A stretch of 9,132 nt of DNA, from the NCBI GenBank assembly GCA_030066475.1, contig JASJBO010000309.1, forward strand, positions 1-9,132, written 5' to 3'. A program made the position numbers and the translations under genes. This document shows positions 2,033 to 6,038 of this stretch, piece by piece. Below the pieces are notes generated by a model that worked only from the letters and a program-made list of their open reading frames with translations, ran no database searches and was not told the DNA's origin. The DNA is from Myxococcota bacterium (GTDB taxonomy: Bacteria; Myxococcota_A; UBA9160; PR03). Every line of letters begins with the position of its first letter. Within the stretch, counting starts at the first letter, position 1.

Positions 2033-2764
2033 GTGAACTGGCTGCGATCGCTGCTGCGCTTCCTGTCGGGGAGTGCCCGTGACCTCACCCCGATCGTGCT
2101 GGTCATCGCGCTCTTCCAGCTGCTGGTCCTGCGCCAGCCGTTCCCCGACCTCGGGAACGCCCTGCTCGGCCTGATCCTGGTCCTGCTGGGCCTCTCCTTC
2201 TTCGTCCGGGGCCTCGACCTCGGGCTCTTCCCACTCGGCGAGAGCATGGCGCACGCTTTCGCCCGCAAGGGCTCCCTCGGCTGGCTGCTGGCCTTCTCCT
2301 TCGCCCTGGGCCTGGGCACCACGGTCGCGGAGCCGGCACTGATCGCGATTGCCGCCGAGGCGTCGGAGGTCGCGGCCCAGGCCGGGGCCATCGCCGACAG
2401 CGCGGCGGCGCGCCACCGCTACGCCCTCGGTCTGCGGCTCACGGTCGGGCTGGCGGTGGGGGTTGCCCTCGTGATCGGCGTCTTCCGGATCCTGACCGGA
2501 TGGCCCATTCATCTGATGATCGCGGGCGGCTACCTGCTGGTCGTCGTCATGACGGCCTTCGCGCCCGAGGAGATCATCGGCATCGCCTACGACTCCGGCG
2601 GCGTCACGACCTCCACCATCACGGTGCCGCTGGTGACCGCCCTGGGCGTGGGCCTGGCCTCGTCGATCGAGGGTCGCAATCCCGTCCTGGATGGGTTCGG
2701 GCTGATTGCGTTTGCGTCGCTCACCCCGATCGTGTTCGTCCTCGCCTACGGAATGCTGATCTGA
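2033..2764 (+). CDS. DUF1538 membrane protein, first of a pair (UmpA/UmpB-like)
   Basis: A 243-residue integral membrane protein of the DUF1538 family, with about seven hydrophobic segments (near 18-34, 42-60, 84-98, 134-152, 161-177, 192-210, 222-241). Family-type motifs are GTTVAEPAL (95-103), [15 protein letters not shown] (186-200) and [11 protein letters not shown] (220-230). An upstream TTG at 1976 is possible, but the GTG at 2033 is preferred because from there the protein aligns residue for residue with the start of the next gene ([10 protein letters not shown] against [10 protein letters not shown]). The ribosome binding site is weak: GAGGA lies 13 bases upstream. From memory, a DUF1538 pair called UmpA/UmpB from Halomonas was reported as a two-component Na+(Li+,K+)/H+ antiporter, so cation/proton exchange in the inner membrane is the best guess. 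Substrate here is inferred, not shown. Confidence 0.85.
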
Positions 2765-3585
2765 TGCCGTGGCTGGCCGAGCTGCTTCGGGTCGTGGTGG
2801 AGACCGTCCGCGACGTCCTCCCGATCGTCGCCATCCTGGCCGTCTTCCAGCTCTTCGTCCTGCGGCGAAAGCTGCCCAACCCGATGCGGCTGTTGCAGGG
2901 GCTCGGCTTCGTGCTGGCCGGGCTGGTGCTGTTCCTGATGGGCCTGGAGCAGGCCGTCTTTCCCGTCGGCAAGACCATGGCCGCCCAGCTCACCGCGCCG
3001 CAGGTGCTCGGCACCGCGGGCGCGCAGGACGCCGCTGCCGCCGACCCGCTGGCCTATCTGTGGGTCTACGCGTTCGCCTTCGCCATCGGGTTCAGCACGA
3101 CCATCGCCGAGCCGGCGCTGATCGCGGTGGCGCTCAAGGCCGAGGAGCTCTCCGCCGGCGCCATCAACGCCTGGGGCCTGCGGATCGCCGTGGCGATCGG
3201 GGTCGCGCTCGGCATCAGCCTCGGTGCGCTCCGCATCGTGCTCGGCGTCCCCCTCCACTACTTCATCGGAGTCGGGTACGCCGTGGTCGTCGTCCAGACG
3301 CTCTTCGCACCGAGGCTCATCGTGCCGCTCGCCTACGATTCGGGCGGCGTCACCACGTCCACCGTGACCGTACCACTGGTCGCCGCGCTGGGACTCGGGC
3401 TGGCCGATGCGCTCCCCGGCCGAAGCCCCCTCATCGACGGCTTCGGACTGATCGCCTTCGCCAGCCTCTTTCCCATGCTCACCGTCATGACCTACGCGCA
3501 GGCCTCGGAGTGGCGGGCCGCGCGCAGCCGTGCGGCCGGGGATCACGCCGCGGGCGAGCTAGCATCCGAGGAGGATCGACCATGA
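2764..3585 (+). CDS. DUF1538 membrane protein, second of a pair (UmpA/UmpB-like)
   Basis: A 273-residue membrane protein homologous to the preceding one throughout. Shared motifs are STTIAEPAL (111-119), [15 protein letters not shown] (191-205) and [11 protein letters not shown] (225-235). It differs in a longer, alanine-rich loop at 78-97 and a hydrophilic C-terminal tail (246-273) rich in Arg, Ala and Glu that probably faces the cytoplasm. The ATG shares its A with the upstream stop (TGATG), and no good Shine-Dalgarno precedes it, which points to termination-reinitiation and equal production of the two subunits. The two proteins probably form a heteromeric transporter. In many genomes two DUF1538 domains are, as I recall, fused in one polypeptide of about 500 residues; here they are separate. 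The tail is a plausible contact site for the P-II-like or CBS partner (inference). Confidence 0.87.
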   Translation: MPWLAELLRVVVETVRDVLPIVAILAVFQLFVLRRKLPNPMRLLQGLGFVLAGLVLFLMGLEQAVFPVGKTMAAQLTAPQVLGTAGAQDAAAADPLAYLWVYAFAFAIGFSTTIAEPALIAVALKAEELSAGAINAWGLRIAVAIGVALGISLGALRIVLGVPLHYFIGVGYAVVVVQTLFAPRLIVPLAYDSGGVTTSTVTVPLVAALGLGLADALPGRSPLIDGFGLIAFASLFPMLTVMTYAQASEWRAARSRAAGDHAAGELASEEDRP

Positions 3586-3932
3586 GGTTCAAGCTGCTGG
3601 TAGCCCTGGTGGATGACCACCTGACGGAGGCGGTCACCGAGGCGGCTCGGGACGCGGGCGCGACCGGCTGTACCGTGCTGACCCAGGCACGGGGCGAGGG
3701 GCTCGAGAAGAAGACGACGTTCCTCGGCCTCACCCTCGAGACCCAACGGGACGTGGTCCTGCTGCTCGTCGAGGAGCACCGGGCACGCCACATCCTGGAG
3801 ACCATCGGGGAGGCCGGCGAGTTCGACTCGAGCCCGGGCACGGGCATCGCCTTCCAGGTCGACGTGGAAGACGCCGTGGGGGTCGCCCACCAGGCGGAGA
3901 GCATCACGCCGAGCCTTCAGGAGGAGCTGTGA
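3582..3932 (+). CDS. P-II-like signalling protein
   Basis: A 116-residue soluble protein with the P-II plan: an N-terminal beta strand (FKLLVALVDD, 3-12), a helix (13-25), a strand (TGCTVLTQARG), a T-loop region (about 37-56), strand DVVLLLVEE (57-65), helix (66-79) and a B-loop-like segment SSPGTGIAFQVDV (83-95). P-II trimers bind ATP/ADP or related nucleotides at subunit interfaces and press their T-loops on transporters or enzymes. Here the T-loop is short, and the Tyr that is uridylylated in GlnB/GlnK is absent. This is therefore a P-II-like protein and not a classical nitrogen regulator. The start is firm: GAGGAGGA lies 6 bases before the ATG, and the ATGA overlap joins it to the DUF1538 gene. 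By context it should regulate that transporter, as GlnK does AmtB and SbtB does SbtA. The ligand is unknown. Confidence 0.85.
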   Translation: MRFKLLVALVDDHLTEAVTEAARDAGATGCTVLTQARGEGLEKKTTFLGLTLETQRDVVLLLVEEHRARHILETIGEAGEFDSSPGTGIAFQVDVEDAVGVAHQAESITPSLQEEL

Positions 3933-4333
3933 CGGAGAGGAACGTCATCCGCGTCGCGGACGTGATGGAGCAGGACTTCGCGATCGTCGAGGGCATCGCC
4001 ACGGTGGCCGAGGCGCTCGCCCTCATGCGGGAGAGGAACGCGCACTTCCTCATCGTCGCCAAGCGCCACGAGGACGACGAGTTCGGCATCGTGATGATCC
4101 GGGACATCGCCGAGCACGTGCTGGCCCCGAATCGCTCCCCGGAGCGCACCAACGTCTACGAGATCATGTCCAAGCCGGTGCTGTCCGTACCGCCCCGGAT
4201 GGACATTCGCTACTGCGCGCGGCTGTTCCACCGCTTCGGGATCTCCACCGCGCCCGTGATCGAGGGGGACGAGATCCGGGGCATCGTCACCTACGACCAG
4301 CTCGTCCTGAAGGGGTTGGCGCAGCAGGCTTGA
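3929..4333 (+). CDS. Two-CBS-domain protein
   Basis: A 134-residue soluble protein made of a tandem CBS pair (Bateman module): CBS1 at about 9-66 (VADVMEQDFAIV ... GIVMIRDIAEHVL) and CBS2 at about 75-130 (NVYEIMSKPVLSV ... GIVTYDQLVLKGL). There is no other domain, so it must act on a partner. Such pairs bind adenosine nucleotides between the domains. The usual G-[IV]-V-T-x-x-D ribose-binding motif is split: CBS1 keeps the Asp (59) but has Met 56 in place of Thr, while CBS2 keeps Thr 121 but has Gln 124 in place of Asp. The GTG start shares GTGA with the P-II-like stop and has AGGAGGA at 3919-3925, so it is the last gene of a coupled four-gene unit. A role as second adenylate sensor for the DUF1538 transporter is inferred from context. 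Confidence 0.88.
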   Translation: MTERNVIRVADVMEQDFAIVEGIATVAEALALMRERNAHFLIVAKRHEDDEFGIVMIRDIAEHVLAPNRSPERTNVYEIMSKPVLSVPPRMDIRYCARLFHRFGISTAPVIEGDEIRGIVTYDQLVLKGLAQQA

Positions 4334-4532: not shown

Positions 4533-6038
4533 ATGAACCCCGTCAGGCTGGCCGCCATCGTCGCGGCCTCGACTCTCGTGGCCCTGAGCGCGCACGCGGG
4601 CCACGGCTACCTGCCCAAGAAGAACGTCGAGATCCCCGACAGCAACTGCTTCTGGACCGGTCCCTACGTCCGGGAGAACCCGGTCACCAACATCGCCTAC
4701 CCGGATACGGGCGCCAAGTACTGGGCGACCAACTTCGCGATGCCCGAGGGCTCCACCCTGAAGATCACCGGTCGCTACATGCACAACCGCTACATGTCGT
4801 ACAACTCGTACGACATCGCGGGTGACGACCCGACCTACTCTCCCGTCGACGCCATCACCGACGTCGACCTGCAGCCCTTGTTCCGATTCGCGAAGAACCC
4901 GTACGTGGAGGGCAACCGCCGAAACACCTGGCTTCGCCGCTACGTGCTCGAGGTCCTGCCGGGCGCTCCGGTCGAGGGCGATCCGCCCAACACGCTGCGC
5001 TCGAACGCCGCGTACGGCGAGCGTGCGACTCTCGTCCTGCGCTCCTACGTGGAAGATGCCGGCACCGGCAACACGGCGGGCGAGTACCTGCCGTCGCCGA
5101 TCGTGACCCTGGCCGACGGCACCGTCCTGTGGGACGTCGAGGAGATCTGTGAGACGCTCGACGTCGACTCCTCGATCGTCAACATCCCGCTCATTCCCGC
5201 TGCGACCTACGACCGGATGGCCGCGTTCGGCAATCCGTACCACCTGGACGGCACCGAGGCGAACCCGACCTTCCTGCTCAAGGCCTTCACGTTCCCCGAG
5301 AACATCAGCTGCGACTGGTTCGGCGCCTGCAGCCCGGCTCCCAGCGATCAGCCCGGGTTCTACGCCAACCTGGACAACCAGTACGTGTTCGGCATGACGA
5401 CCAACGCGCGTCCGATCGTGGTTCCGGAGGCCGCGCTCGAACTCGAGGAGGGAACGACGCCTCTCGGTGTGGTCACGGTCGGCTTCCAGAAGGACCCCGA
5501 GCTGGCGGTTGCCGTCTTCCGCGGGAAGCTGCCCGAGACGCCGCGGACCCGCGAGGGCAGCAAGTACGCCGAAGAGGGCGAGATGCGCTACTGGTCGTTC
5601 TGCACCAACCAGTACATGTCCCAGAAGGTGACCGACTGCCTGTACGACGAGCAGGTCGTCACGGACGAGGACGGGTACTACACCATCGCCATCGGCTGGG
5701 AAGAGGACCGTCCCGCCAACGCGACCGCCGAGTGCGGCTACAACTGGCTTCCGACCTCGACCGCGGGCGACGGCTACCTCGACATCCTCGAGCAGGAGGT
5801 CGCCCAGGGCGAGCTGGATCCGGTCGAGCTGGTGACGCCGAACGCGCTCGGCCAGCCTCGCGCGAACAACCCCTACCAGAACATGGTGATCGTGCGGAAC
5901 ATGCTGCCCGCGGCCGACTTCCCGTACGCCATCCAGGACGTCTCGAGCTACGCCGAGACGGCGAGCGTGATGGGCGAGTACGCGGTGGGCTACTGGTACG
6001 AGTCCCGGGCCGCCTTCGAGAGCCGCGGCTGCCACTGA
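4533..6038 (+). CDS. Secreted protein of unknown function, 501 residues
   Basis: I do not recognise a named family. A clear signal peptide (1-22, hydrophobic core then SAHA) predicts export to the periplasm or beyond. The mature part holds eight cysteines (39, 206, 260, 266, 357, 369, 401, 500), an even number compatible with disulfides. It is acidic and rich in Tyr, Pro and Asn. Notable segments are TGRYMHNRYMSYNSYD (79-94), which resembles the start of beta-sandwich domains in uncharacterised exported proteins, and RYWSFCTNQYMSQKV (352-366), followed by DCLYDEQ. No known catalytic triad or metal motif is evident, and there are no membrane segments after the signal. The ATG at 4533 is preferred over a TTG four codons upstream, because GGAGGA (4523-4528) sits 4 bases before it and the signal peptide begins properly. 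It appears monocistronic, between the direct repeats and a strong hairpin. High translation is suggested by the good ribosome site only. Confidence 0.83.
   Translation: MNPVRLAAIVAASTLVALSAHAGHGYLPKKNVEIPDSNCFWTGPYVRENPVTNIAYPDTGAKYWATNFAMPEGSTLKITGRYMHNRYMSYNSYDIAGDDPTYSPVDAITDVDLQPLFRFAKNPYVEGNRRNTWLRRYVLEVLPGAPVEGDPPNTLRSNAAYGERATLVLRSYVEDAGTGNTAGEYLPSPIVTLADGTVLWDVEEICETLDVDSSIVNIPLIPAATYDRMAAFGNPYHLDGTEANPTFLLKAFTFPENISCDWFGACSPAPSDQPGFYANLDNQYVFGMTTNARPIVVPEAALELEEGTTPLGVVTVGFQKDPELAVAVFRGKLPETPRTREGSKYAEEGEMRYWSFCTNQYMSQKVTDCLYDEQVVTDEDGYYTIAIGWEEDRPANATAECGYNWLPTSTAGDGYLDILEQEVAQGELDPVELVTPNALGQPRANNPYQNMVIVRNMLPAADFPYAIQDVSSYAETASVMGEYAVGYWYESRAAFESRGCH

Follow-up and report, generated by a model that had tools for sequence, protein, structure and literature searches.

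Genes of the locus and their families

We examined a 9,132-nucleotide stretch of Myxococcota bacterium DNA (contig JASJBO010000309.1 of assembly GCA_030066475.1), hereafter the window, in which positions 2033–4333 hold a module of four plus-strand genes, here called A, B, C and D in their 5' to 3' order. Gene A (2033–2764, +; GTG start, 243 residues) encodes an UmpA-like DUF1538 membrane protein, predicted from charge bias to have its N-terminus inside and its C-terminus outside; gene B (2764–3585, +; 273 residues, with a charged C-terminal tail) encodes an UmpB-like DUF1538 membrane protein for which the same measure predicts the N-terminus outside and the C-terminus inside. They are followed by gene C (3582–3932, +; 116 residues), the product of which is P-II-like with a shortened T-loop (about residues 37–57) and without the canonical residues for ATP and 2-oxoglutarate (2-OG), and by gene D (3929–4333, +; GTG start, 134 residues), which encodes a CBS-pair protein, an accessory part that is not always present. 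Neighbouring genes overlap by 1, 4 and 4 bases, as read in the sequence: a TGATG (2762–2766, +) holds the stop of A and the start of B, an ATGA (3582–3585, +) the start of C and the stop of B, and a GTGA (3929–3932, +) the start of D and the stop of C. These overlaps bear out the coupled four-gene arrangement described in an earlier reading of this DNA (the original prediction).

Both A and B belong to the DUF1538 family (PF07556; cut-off 22.6 bits), with Pfam scores of 225.8 bits (E 4.8e-67) and 223.1 bits (E 3.1e-66), respectively, and the earlier claim that the pair is related to UmpAB of Halomonas zhaodongensis, a heterodimeric, pH-dependent Na+(Li+,K+)/H+ antiporter (PMC5484666), held up. 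Halomonas umpAB subcloned without further genes conferred salt tolerance and antiport on the antiporter-deficient E. coli KNabc (PMC5484666); as transport by this pair needs neither C nor D, the result fits a regulatory role for those two proteins. DUF1538 is also among the 20 top features listed for growth pH (in an excerpt of PMC13255231), and UmpAB homologues of cable bacteria have been linked to salinity (in excerpts of PMC10030654 and PMC12093952). By our own count an AlphaFold 2 (AF2) model of B (pLDDT 92.6, pTM 0.84) has seven membrane helices, two of which are broken, near the motifs STTIAEP and DSGGV; E116 and D192 of B are invariant in the 44 UmpA/UmpB rows of our alignment. A search of PDB sequences with the UmpB profile gave no match up to E 10, a Foldseek search with the UmpB model gave nothing at E <= 0.001, and comparison of the model with the MgtE membrane domain revealed a weak fold resemblance only.

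Predicted opposite orientation of the two DUF1538 proteins

The loops of UmpA and UmpB carry opposite charge patterns. Counting lysines and arginines in loops whose limits were set post hoc from the UmpB model, we found the bias to be +6.0 in UmpB, with 24 of 25 proteins above zero, and -5.8 in UmpA, with none of 19 above zero; with the tails left out, the UmpB bias was above zero in 25 of 25 and that of UmpA below zero in 18 of 19. When the same loops were counted, again without tails, in 219 proteins in which the two domains are fused, the first half was negative in 214 and positive in none and the second half positive in all 219, these proteins being mutually related and so not 219 independent tests. 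The gap between the two DUF1538 domains in the fusions has a median of 27 residues, and given seven helices in each half, the shortness of the linker and a terminal P-II domain on the cytoplasmic side, such a fusion would require the halves to lie in opposite orientation. From the opposite positive-inside patterns we predict that UmpA and UmpB form an antiparallel heterodimer. Full activity of the Halomonas antiporter takes both UmpA and UmpB, and the opposite charge patterns offer a testable answer to why this is so; the words "topology", "antiparallel" and "inverted" do not occur in the paper describing that pair (PMC5484666).

Conservation and co-occurrence of the locus

A genome scan with C confirmed 210 loci, of which the best 80 were kept, a set hence biased to close relatives (62–92% identity). 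In 80 of the 80 kept loci C stands between an upstream B and a downstream D, all on one strand, and A is present in 79, the contig of the remaining one (L012) starting inside B. The nearest relative among the best 80 of 210 is a contig of a Myxococcota metagenome-assembled genome (MAG; L001), with identities of 86, 81, 92 and 88% for A, B, C and D, respectively, while record titles in the scan include Vibrio, Shewanella, Photobacterium, Chromatiales, Nitrosomonas, Myxococcota and one Pirellulales MAG. C and D share exactly 4 bases in 73 of the 80 loci, and A and B share 4 or 1 in 65 of 78; the distance between B and C is variable, and some frames are broken in draft assemblies. A few of the 80 loci have A or B divided into two frames, and L010 carries an additional B; where UmpA lies in two frames in three Vibrio drafts (L016, L017 and L028), this may be sequencing error or real loss. 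A plasmid search with C returned no match.

Co-occurrence was counted in three phylum samples, each including its seed genome: Pseudomonadota (249 genomes), the Myxococcota phylum (140) and the Planctomycetota phylum (119). Among the Pseudomonadota, DUF1538 was found in 105 genomes, the C profile in 109 and both in 101 (Fisher p 2.7e-54, for genomes that are not phylogenetically independent). DUF1538 is rare in the Myxococcota-phylum sample (6 of 140), where C adjoins all six, and it occurs in 3 of 119 Planctomycetota-phylum genomes, with C beside all three in loci read by eye rather than scanned with the C profile; pooled over the three samples, 110 of 114 DUF1538 genomes carry C. At the level of genes, C was found on the same strand and no more than 1.6 kb away for 144 of the 150 listed DUF1538 matches and on a different contig of the same genome for two, and the remaining four make up two A-B pairs without a neighbouring C; this count covers the listed DUF1538 and D matches, with C rows of E 1e-7 or better and D rows of at least 62 bits. 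The count across genomes that had been proposed with the original prediction thus came out as a clearly non-random co-occurrence of the families, and a chance neighbourhood is ruled out by the gene order in the 80 loci, the co-occurrence across genomes and the adjacency of C to the DUF1538 genes. Such conservation of a PII gene beside a transporter gene, in 144 of 150 listed matches and 80 of 80 loci found with C, is a mark of P-II-gated transporters.

The CBS-pair gene is less constant. Its profile gave 57 listed matches of at least 62 bits in the Pseudomonadota, 55 of them on the strand of C and no more than 300 bp from it; D is missing from seven loci with a strong C, and its presence differs among four sub-types distinguished in the loci that were read. 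In sub-type 1, to which the window belongs, A, B and C are separate and mostly accompanied by D, and in sub-type 3 a fused A-B protein (about 495–535 residues) is followed by C and then D; sub-types 2 and 4 are mostly or wholly without D. Sub-type 2 has separate A, B and C, in some loci with neighbours of verified family: TrkH (L175), TrkA (L182), TrkA-type K+ channels (L179, L180) and CNNM/CorC (L172). Sub-type 4 has a divergent A-B fusion (about 567–647 residues; unfused in L166), then C and often an apparent second P-II-like gene. As the CBS gene is missing from several sub-types, the core consists of three parts (UmpA, UmpB and the P-II-like protein), not four, with CBS optional; of the "four-gene module", the order stands, being kept in 79 of 80 relatives, and the obligatory fourth part does not.

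The second P-II-like gene may follow the divergent fusion and C in L191–L193, L196–L198, L202, L206, L207, L270 and L271; it scores 21.0 bits in L193 (Pfam cut-off 25), has no match in L198 and weak profile matches in L202, L270 and L271, and was recognised by eye in the others. A protein with a SpoIIE-phosphatase domain comes next in L193 and L196.

The P-II-like and CBS-pair proteins

C belongs to the P-II superfamily, PII fold included, with a Pfam P-II match of E 3.2e-11 and 43.9 bits (cut-off 25). In E. coli GlnK we take the ATP/2-OG-binding positions to be R38, Q39, K58, K90, R101 and R103, and the T-loop tyrosine to be Tyr51. An alignment of 21 C-family sequences, that of the window included, to GlnK showed R38, Y51, K58, K60, K90 and R101 to be kept in none, Q39 in three and R103 in one. 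With these residues gone in all or nearly all of the 21, a canonical nitrogen PII (GlnB/GlnK) is ruled out, and the earlier idea that energy state is sensed through a P-II-like trimer is not supported. At least 7,996 proteins, out of 8,000 scored candidates, match C at E <= 0.001, a count that may take in other sub-families; a P-II partner of this kind on an antiporter would supply a function for many of the proteins that currently bear the name "P-II family nitrogen regulator".

Some relatives of C stand in other surroundings. A paralog lies directly upstream of dusB, a gene for an NtrB-like kinase and ntrC in L153:103-4023 (Pfam and NCBIfam; the kinase scores below the NtrB equivalog cut-off), and by reading also upstream of dusB-ntrB-ntrC in L155, L156 and L161, with argB nearby in L161; in these four genomes control of nitrogen may have passed to a non-canonical P-II. 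In the Myxococcota-phylum sample, both of the two genomes with a strong match to NhaB, a different Na+/H+ antiporter, have a P-II-like relative of C behind that gene. At L189:2679-4845 and L190:2668-4838 an NhaB-type gene is followed by one for a protein with two P-II-like halves, of which Pfam matches the second only, the first being more weakly P-II-like.

D matches Pfam PF00571 in two CBS stretches (E 2.5e-18), and its nearest solved relative is CBS-CP12 (5nmu; E 6.5e-35 over profile positions 6–128). The nucleotide site of a CBS domain presumably follows the pattern G...D; in the first repeat of D, G53 and D59 are present in 30 of 30 sequences, and in the second G118 is present in 30 of 30 and an aspartate at 124 in 14 of 30. 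CBS-CP12 is reported, in an excerpt of PMC9406205, to bind AMP, and by analogy AMP sensing by D is plausible.

Proteins that fuse UmpA, UmpB and P-II

A search for fusions was seeded with the open frame that joins B and C in L017, and one of the proteins found, P0202, then served as query, its best 120 matches being examined. P0194, P0202, P0222 and P0234 have the composition DUF1538-DUF1538-P-II; an UmpB-P-II join in P0181 looks genuine, and those in P0121 and P0122, which appear by eye to be frameshift joins, were not counted as evidence. Among the best 120 matches to P0202, precomputed annotation assigns both PF07556 and PF00543 to 105 and DUF1538 only to 15; with our own profiles 119 have two DUF1538 domains, in every case followed by a P-II-like domain. 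The 219 fused proteins of the charge analysis were gathered with P-II-bearing queries, so that the 121 of them with P-II do not give a frequency. The proteins are of Arcobacteraceae type; Poseidonibacter parvus, Malaciobacter halophilus and Arcobacter species are among the named sources, and several lie on contigs of more than 1 Mb. Summed over two stretches, P0277 and P0344 score 504.0 and 491.9 bits with the NCBIfam model of UmpA, above its cut-off of 490, and 417.2 and 415.9 with that of UmpB, below its cut-off of 500.

That UmpA, UmpB and P-II occur on one polypeptide makes the best case for C as a very likely physical subunit; its predicted stoichiometry is 1:1:1, and its predicted place is by the UmpB C-terminus on the cytoplasmic face. 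The fused proteins also provide single-chain targets for structure work.

Proposed mechanism and alternative explanations

We propose, with a probability of roughly 0.6, that the locus encodes a PII-gated, antiparallel, two-subunit antiporter of monovalent cations and protons. It would be a secondary transporter with its own control subunit, antiport being suggested by the Halomonas pair. The homologous UmpA and UmpB, each with seven transmembrane (TM) helices, would be inserted in opposite orientations to make up one antiparallel transporter, whose cation and proton are probably carried by E116 and D192 in B, invariant acids located at or close to the two broken helices. The P-II-like protein, also when unfused, would dock on the cytoplasmic face, the site of the UmpB C-terminus and the positive loops, and gate transport, the likely means being a T-loop contact of the sort that GlnK makes with AmtB; the protein would not read ATP or 2-OG in the canonical way. 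Where present, the CBS pair would add a second, probably AMP-dependent, input. The family assignments, gene order, co-occurrence, fusions, charge pattern and loss of PII ligand residues come directly from computation, and the partnership of P-II with a cation/H+ antiporter family is real and widespread; docking, gating and ligands are what we infer from it. P-II control is a textbook matter of nitrogen and carbon signalling and, if the proposal is true, would extend to pH and salt balance. A wider version, which we hold tentatively and at somewhat less than even odds, is that DUF1538 proteins in general are widespread antiparallel two-subunit monovalent cation/H+ antiporters with a near-obligatory P-II subunit that no longer senses ATP/2-OG and reads cation, pH or another ligand instead, with AMP control through CBS where present, and that members of the wider P-II-like family have likewise come to serve NhaB and to stand next to NtrBC.

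Several observations weigh against a gated antiporter of this kind. A and B miss the NCBIfam equivalog cut-offs (366.3 against 490 for UmpA, NF041627; 312.3 against 500 for UmpB, NF041628), and they are for that reason labelled UmpA-like and UmpB-like only. Other parts of C are better conserved than the T-loop: its mean entropy is 0.85 bits against 1.05 overall, and the C-loop and three strands have lower values. In two genomes (L229 and L230) an A-B pair is not followed by C, and 4 of the 105 Pseudomonadota genomes with DUF1538 have no C match; conversely, C occurs below E 1e-8 without DUF1538 in five Pseudomonadota genomes (eight at E 1e-3), and C-family proteins lie away from DUF1538, such as those directly upstream of dusB-ntrB-ntrC, so the C family is not confined to antiporters. 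P-II is absent from the same polypeptide in 98 of the 102 double-DUF1538 proteins of the L017-seeded list, a count that leaves adjoining genes aside. According to an excerpt of PMC10710835, PII control of transporters appears restricted to those able to function as trimers, and UmpAB is reported to be a heterodimer (PMC5484666). The pairing of NhaB with P-II, finally, is not general: as a rule it fails at 0 of 35 strong NhaB places in the Pseudomonadota (of 36 listed, with about 1.5 kb or more on each side).

The surroundings of some C relatives suggest another role, in which UmpAB is itself the sensor and sequesters or releases the P-II-like protein, which then controls other targets such as nitrogen or potassium regulation. 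Genes of the ntr group and argB are classic PII targets, and C-family members lie directly upstream of dusB-ntrB-ntrC (L153) and near argB (L161); AmtB, too, sequesters GlnK, to judge from a reference title in PMC10710835. However, the P-II domain of the Arcobacteraceae-type protein cannot leave the transporter, because it is fused to it, and we regard a sensor of this kind as unlikely. The same low probability attaches to the possibility that the pair mostly moves something other than Na+ or K+ against protons, for example a divalent ion, in which case the P-II-like protein would still be a regulator. Coupled genes are often merely co-regulated, and no binding data were found in the literature searched, as would suit a loose pH/salt operon of co-expressed genes whose soluble products do not touch UmpAB; the covalent DUF1538-DUF1538-P-II proteins and the adjacency in three phyla speak against such an operon and make it very improbable.

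Other genes of the window

The genes flanking the module encode a TPR protein, an anchor-type protein, HisC, an aromatic aminotransferase and an EF-hand protein (Pfam, NCBIfam), with no evident link to it. On the 5' side, the TPR protein (78–1283, -) and a Choice-of-anchor R/PEP-CTERM-like protein (1290–1925, -) diverge from the module; just 3' of it, 4542–6035 encodes a 498-residue protein with no Pfam or NCBIfam match and a start that looks by eye like a signal peptide.

Comparison with known systems

The Halomonas zhaodongensis UmpAB pair shares with the window two homologous DUF1538 proteins, each with seven predicted TM helices, and a one-base stop/start overlap (PMC5484666); it differs in that the window pair falls below the equivalog cut-offs, is coupled to P-II-like and CBS genes, and is assigned a putative antiparallel arrangement. 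Neither "P-II" nor "CBS" occurs in that paper, and three further DUF1538 papers (PMC5996927, PMC6055358 and PMC7221264) contain neither "P-II" nor "CBS domain", a single "pii" being part of a motif. We found no description of a P-II partner for a cation/H+ antiporter family in the literature searched, the coverage of which leaves out most subscription journals. PII control of a cation/H+ antiporter is not claimed here as a first, given PII-NG, which is encoded beside CzcABC (in an excerpt of PMC7726332, citing Sant'Anna 2009). As far as that excerpt goes, this divergent P-II beside a proton-driven cation exporter is the nearest gene-context precedent, although CzcABC is a metal exporter of another family; the likeness of PII-NG to C drawn here is one of gene context.

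Systems under CBS-pair control offer a further comparison. MgtE and CNNM-CorB are ion transporters of this type (in an excerpt of PMC10710835), and UmpB has the weak fold resemblance to MgtE described above; in the window, however, CBS is a separate, optional protein, and the UmpB profile has no match among solved structures. D differs from CBS-CP12 (5nmu) in lacking the CP12 part and in having transporter genes as neighbours. In SbtB-SbtA, as described in the same excerpt, a PII-like protein likewise acts on a transporter and AMP is involved, there bound to SbtB, whereas SbtA is a trimeric bicarbonate transporter and any AMP in the window would be bound by the separate CBS protein. In GlnK-AmtB, too, the gene for a P-II-fold protein adjoins that of the transporter to be gated; the window differs in having an antiporter pair instead of a trimeric channel, a C protein with a shorter T-loop and without Tyr51 or the ATP/2-OG residues, and a natural fusion among its relatives. 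By analogy with these two systems, the window locus is best read as a further case of the GlnK-AmtB and SbtB-SbtA kind.

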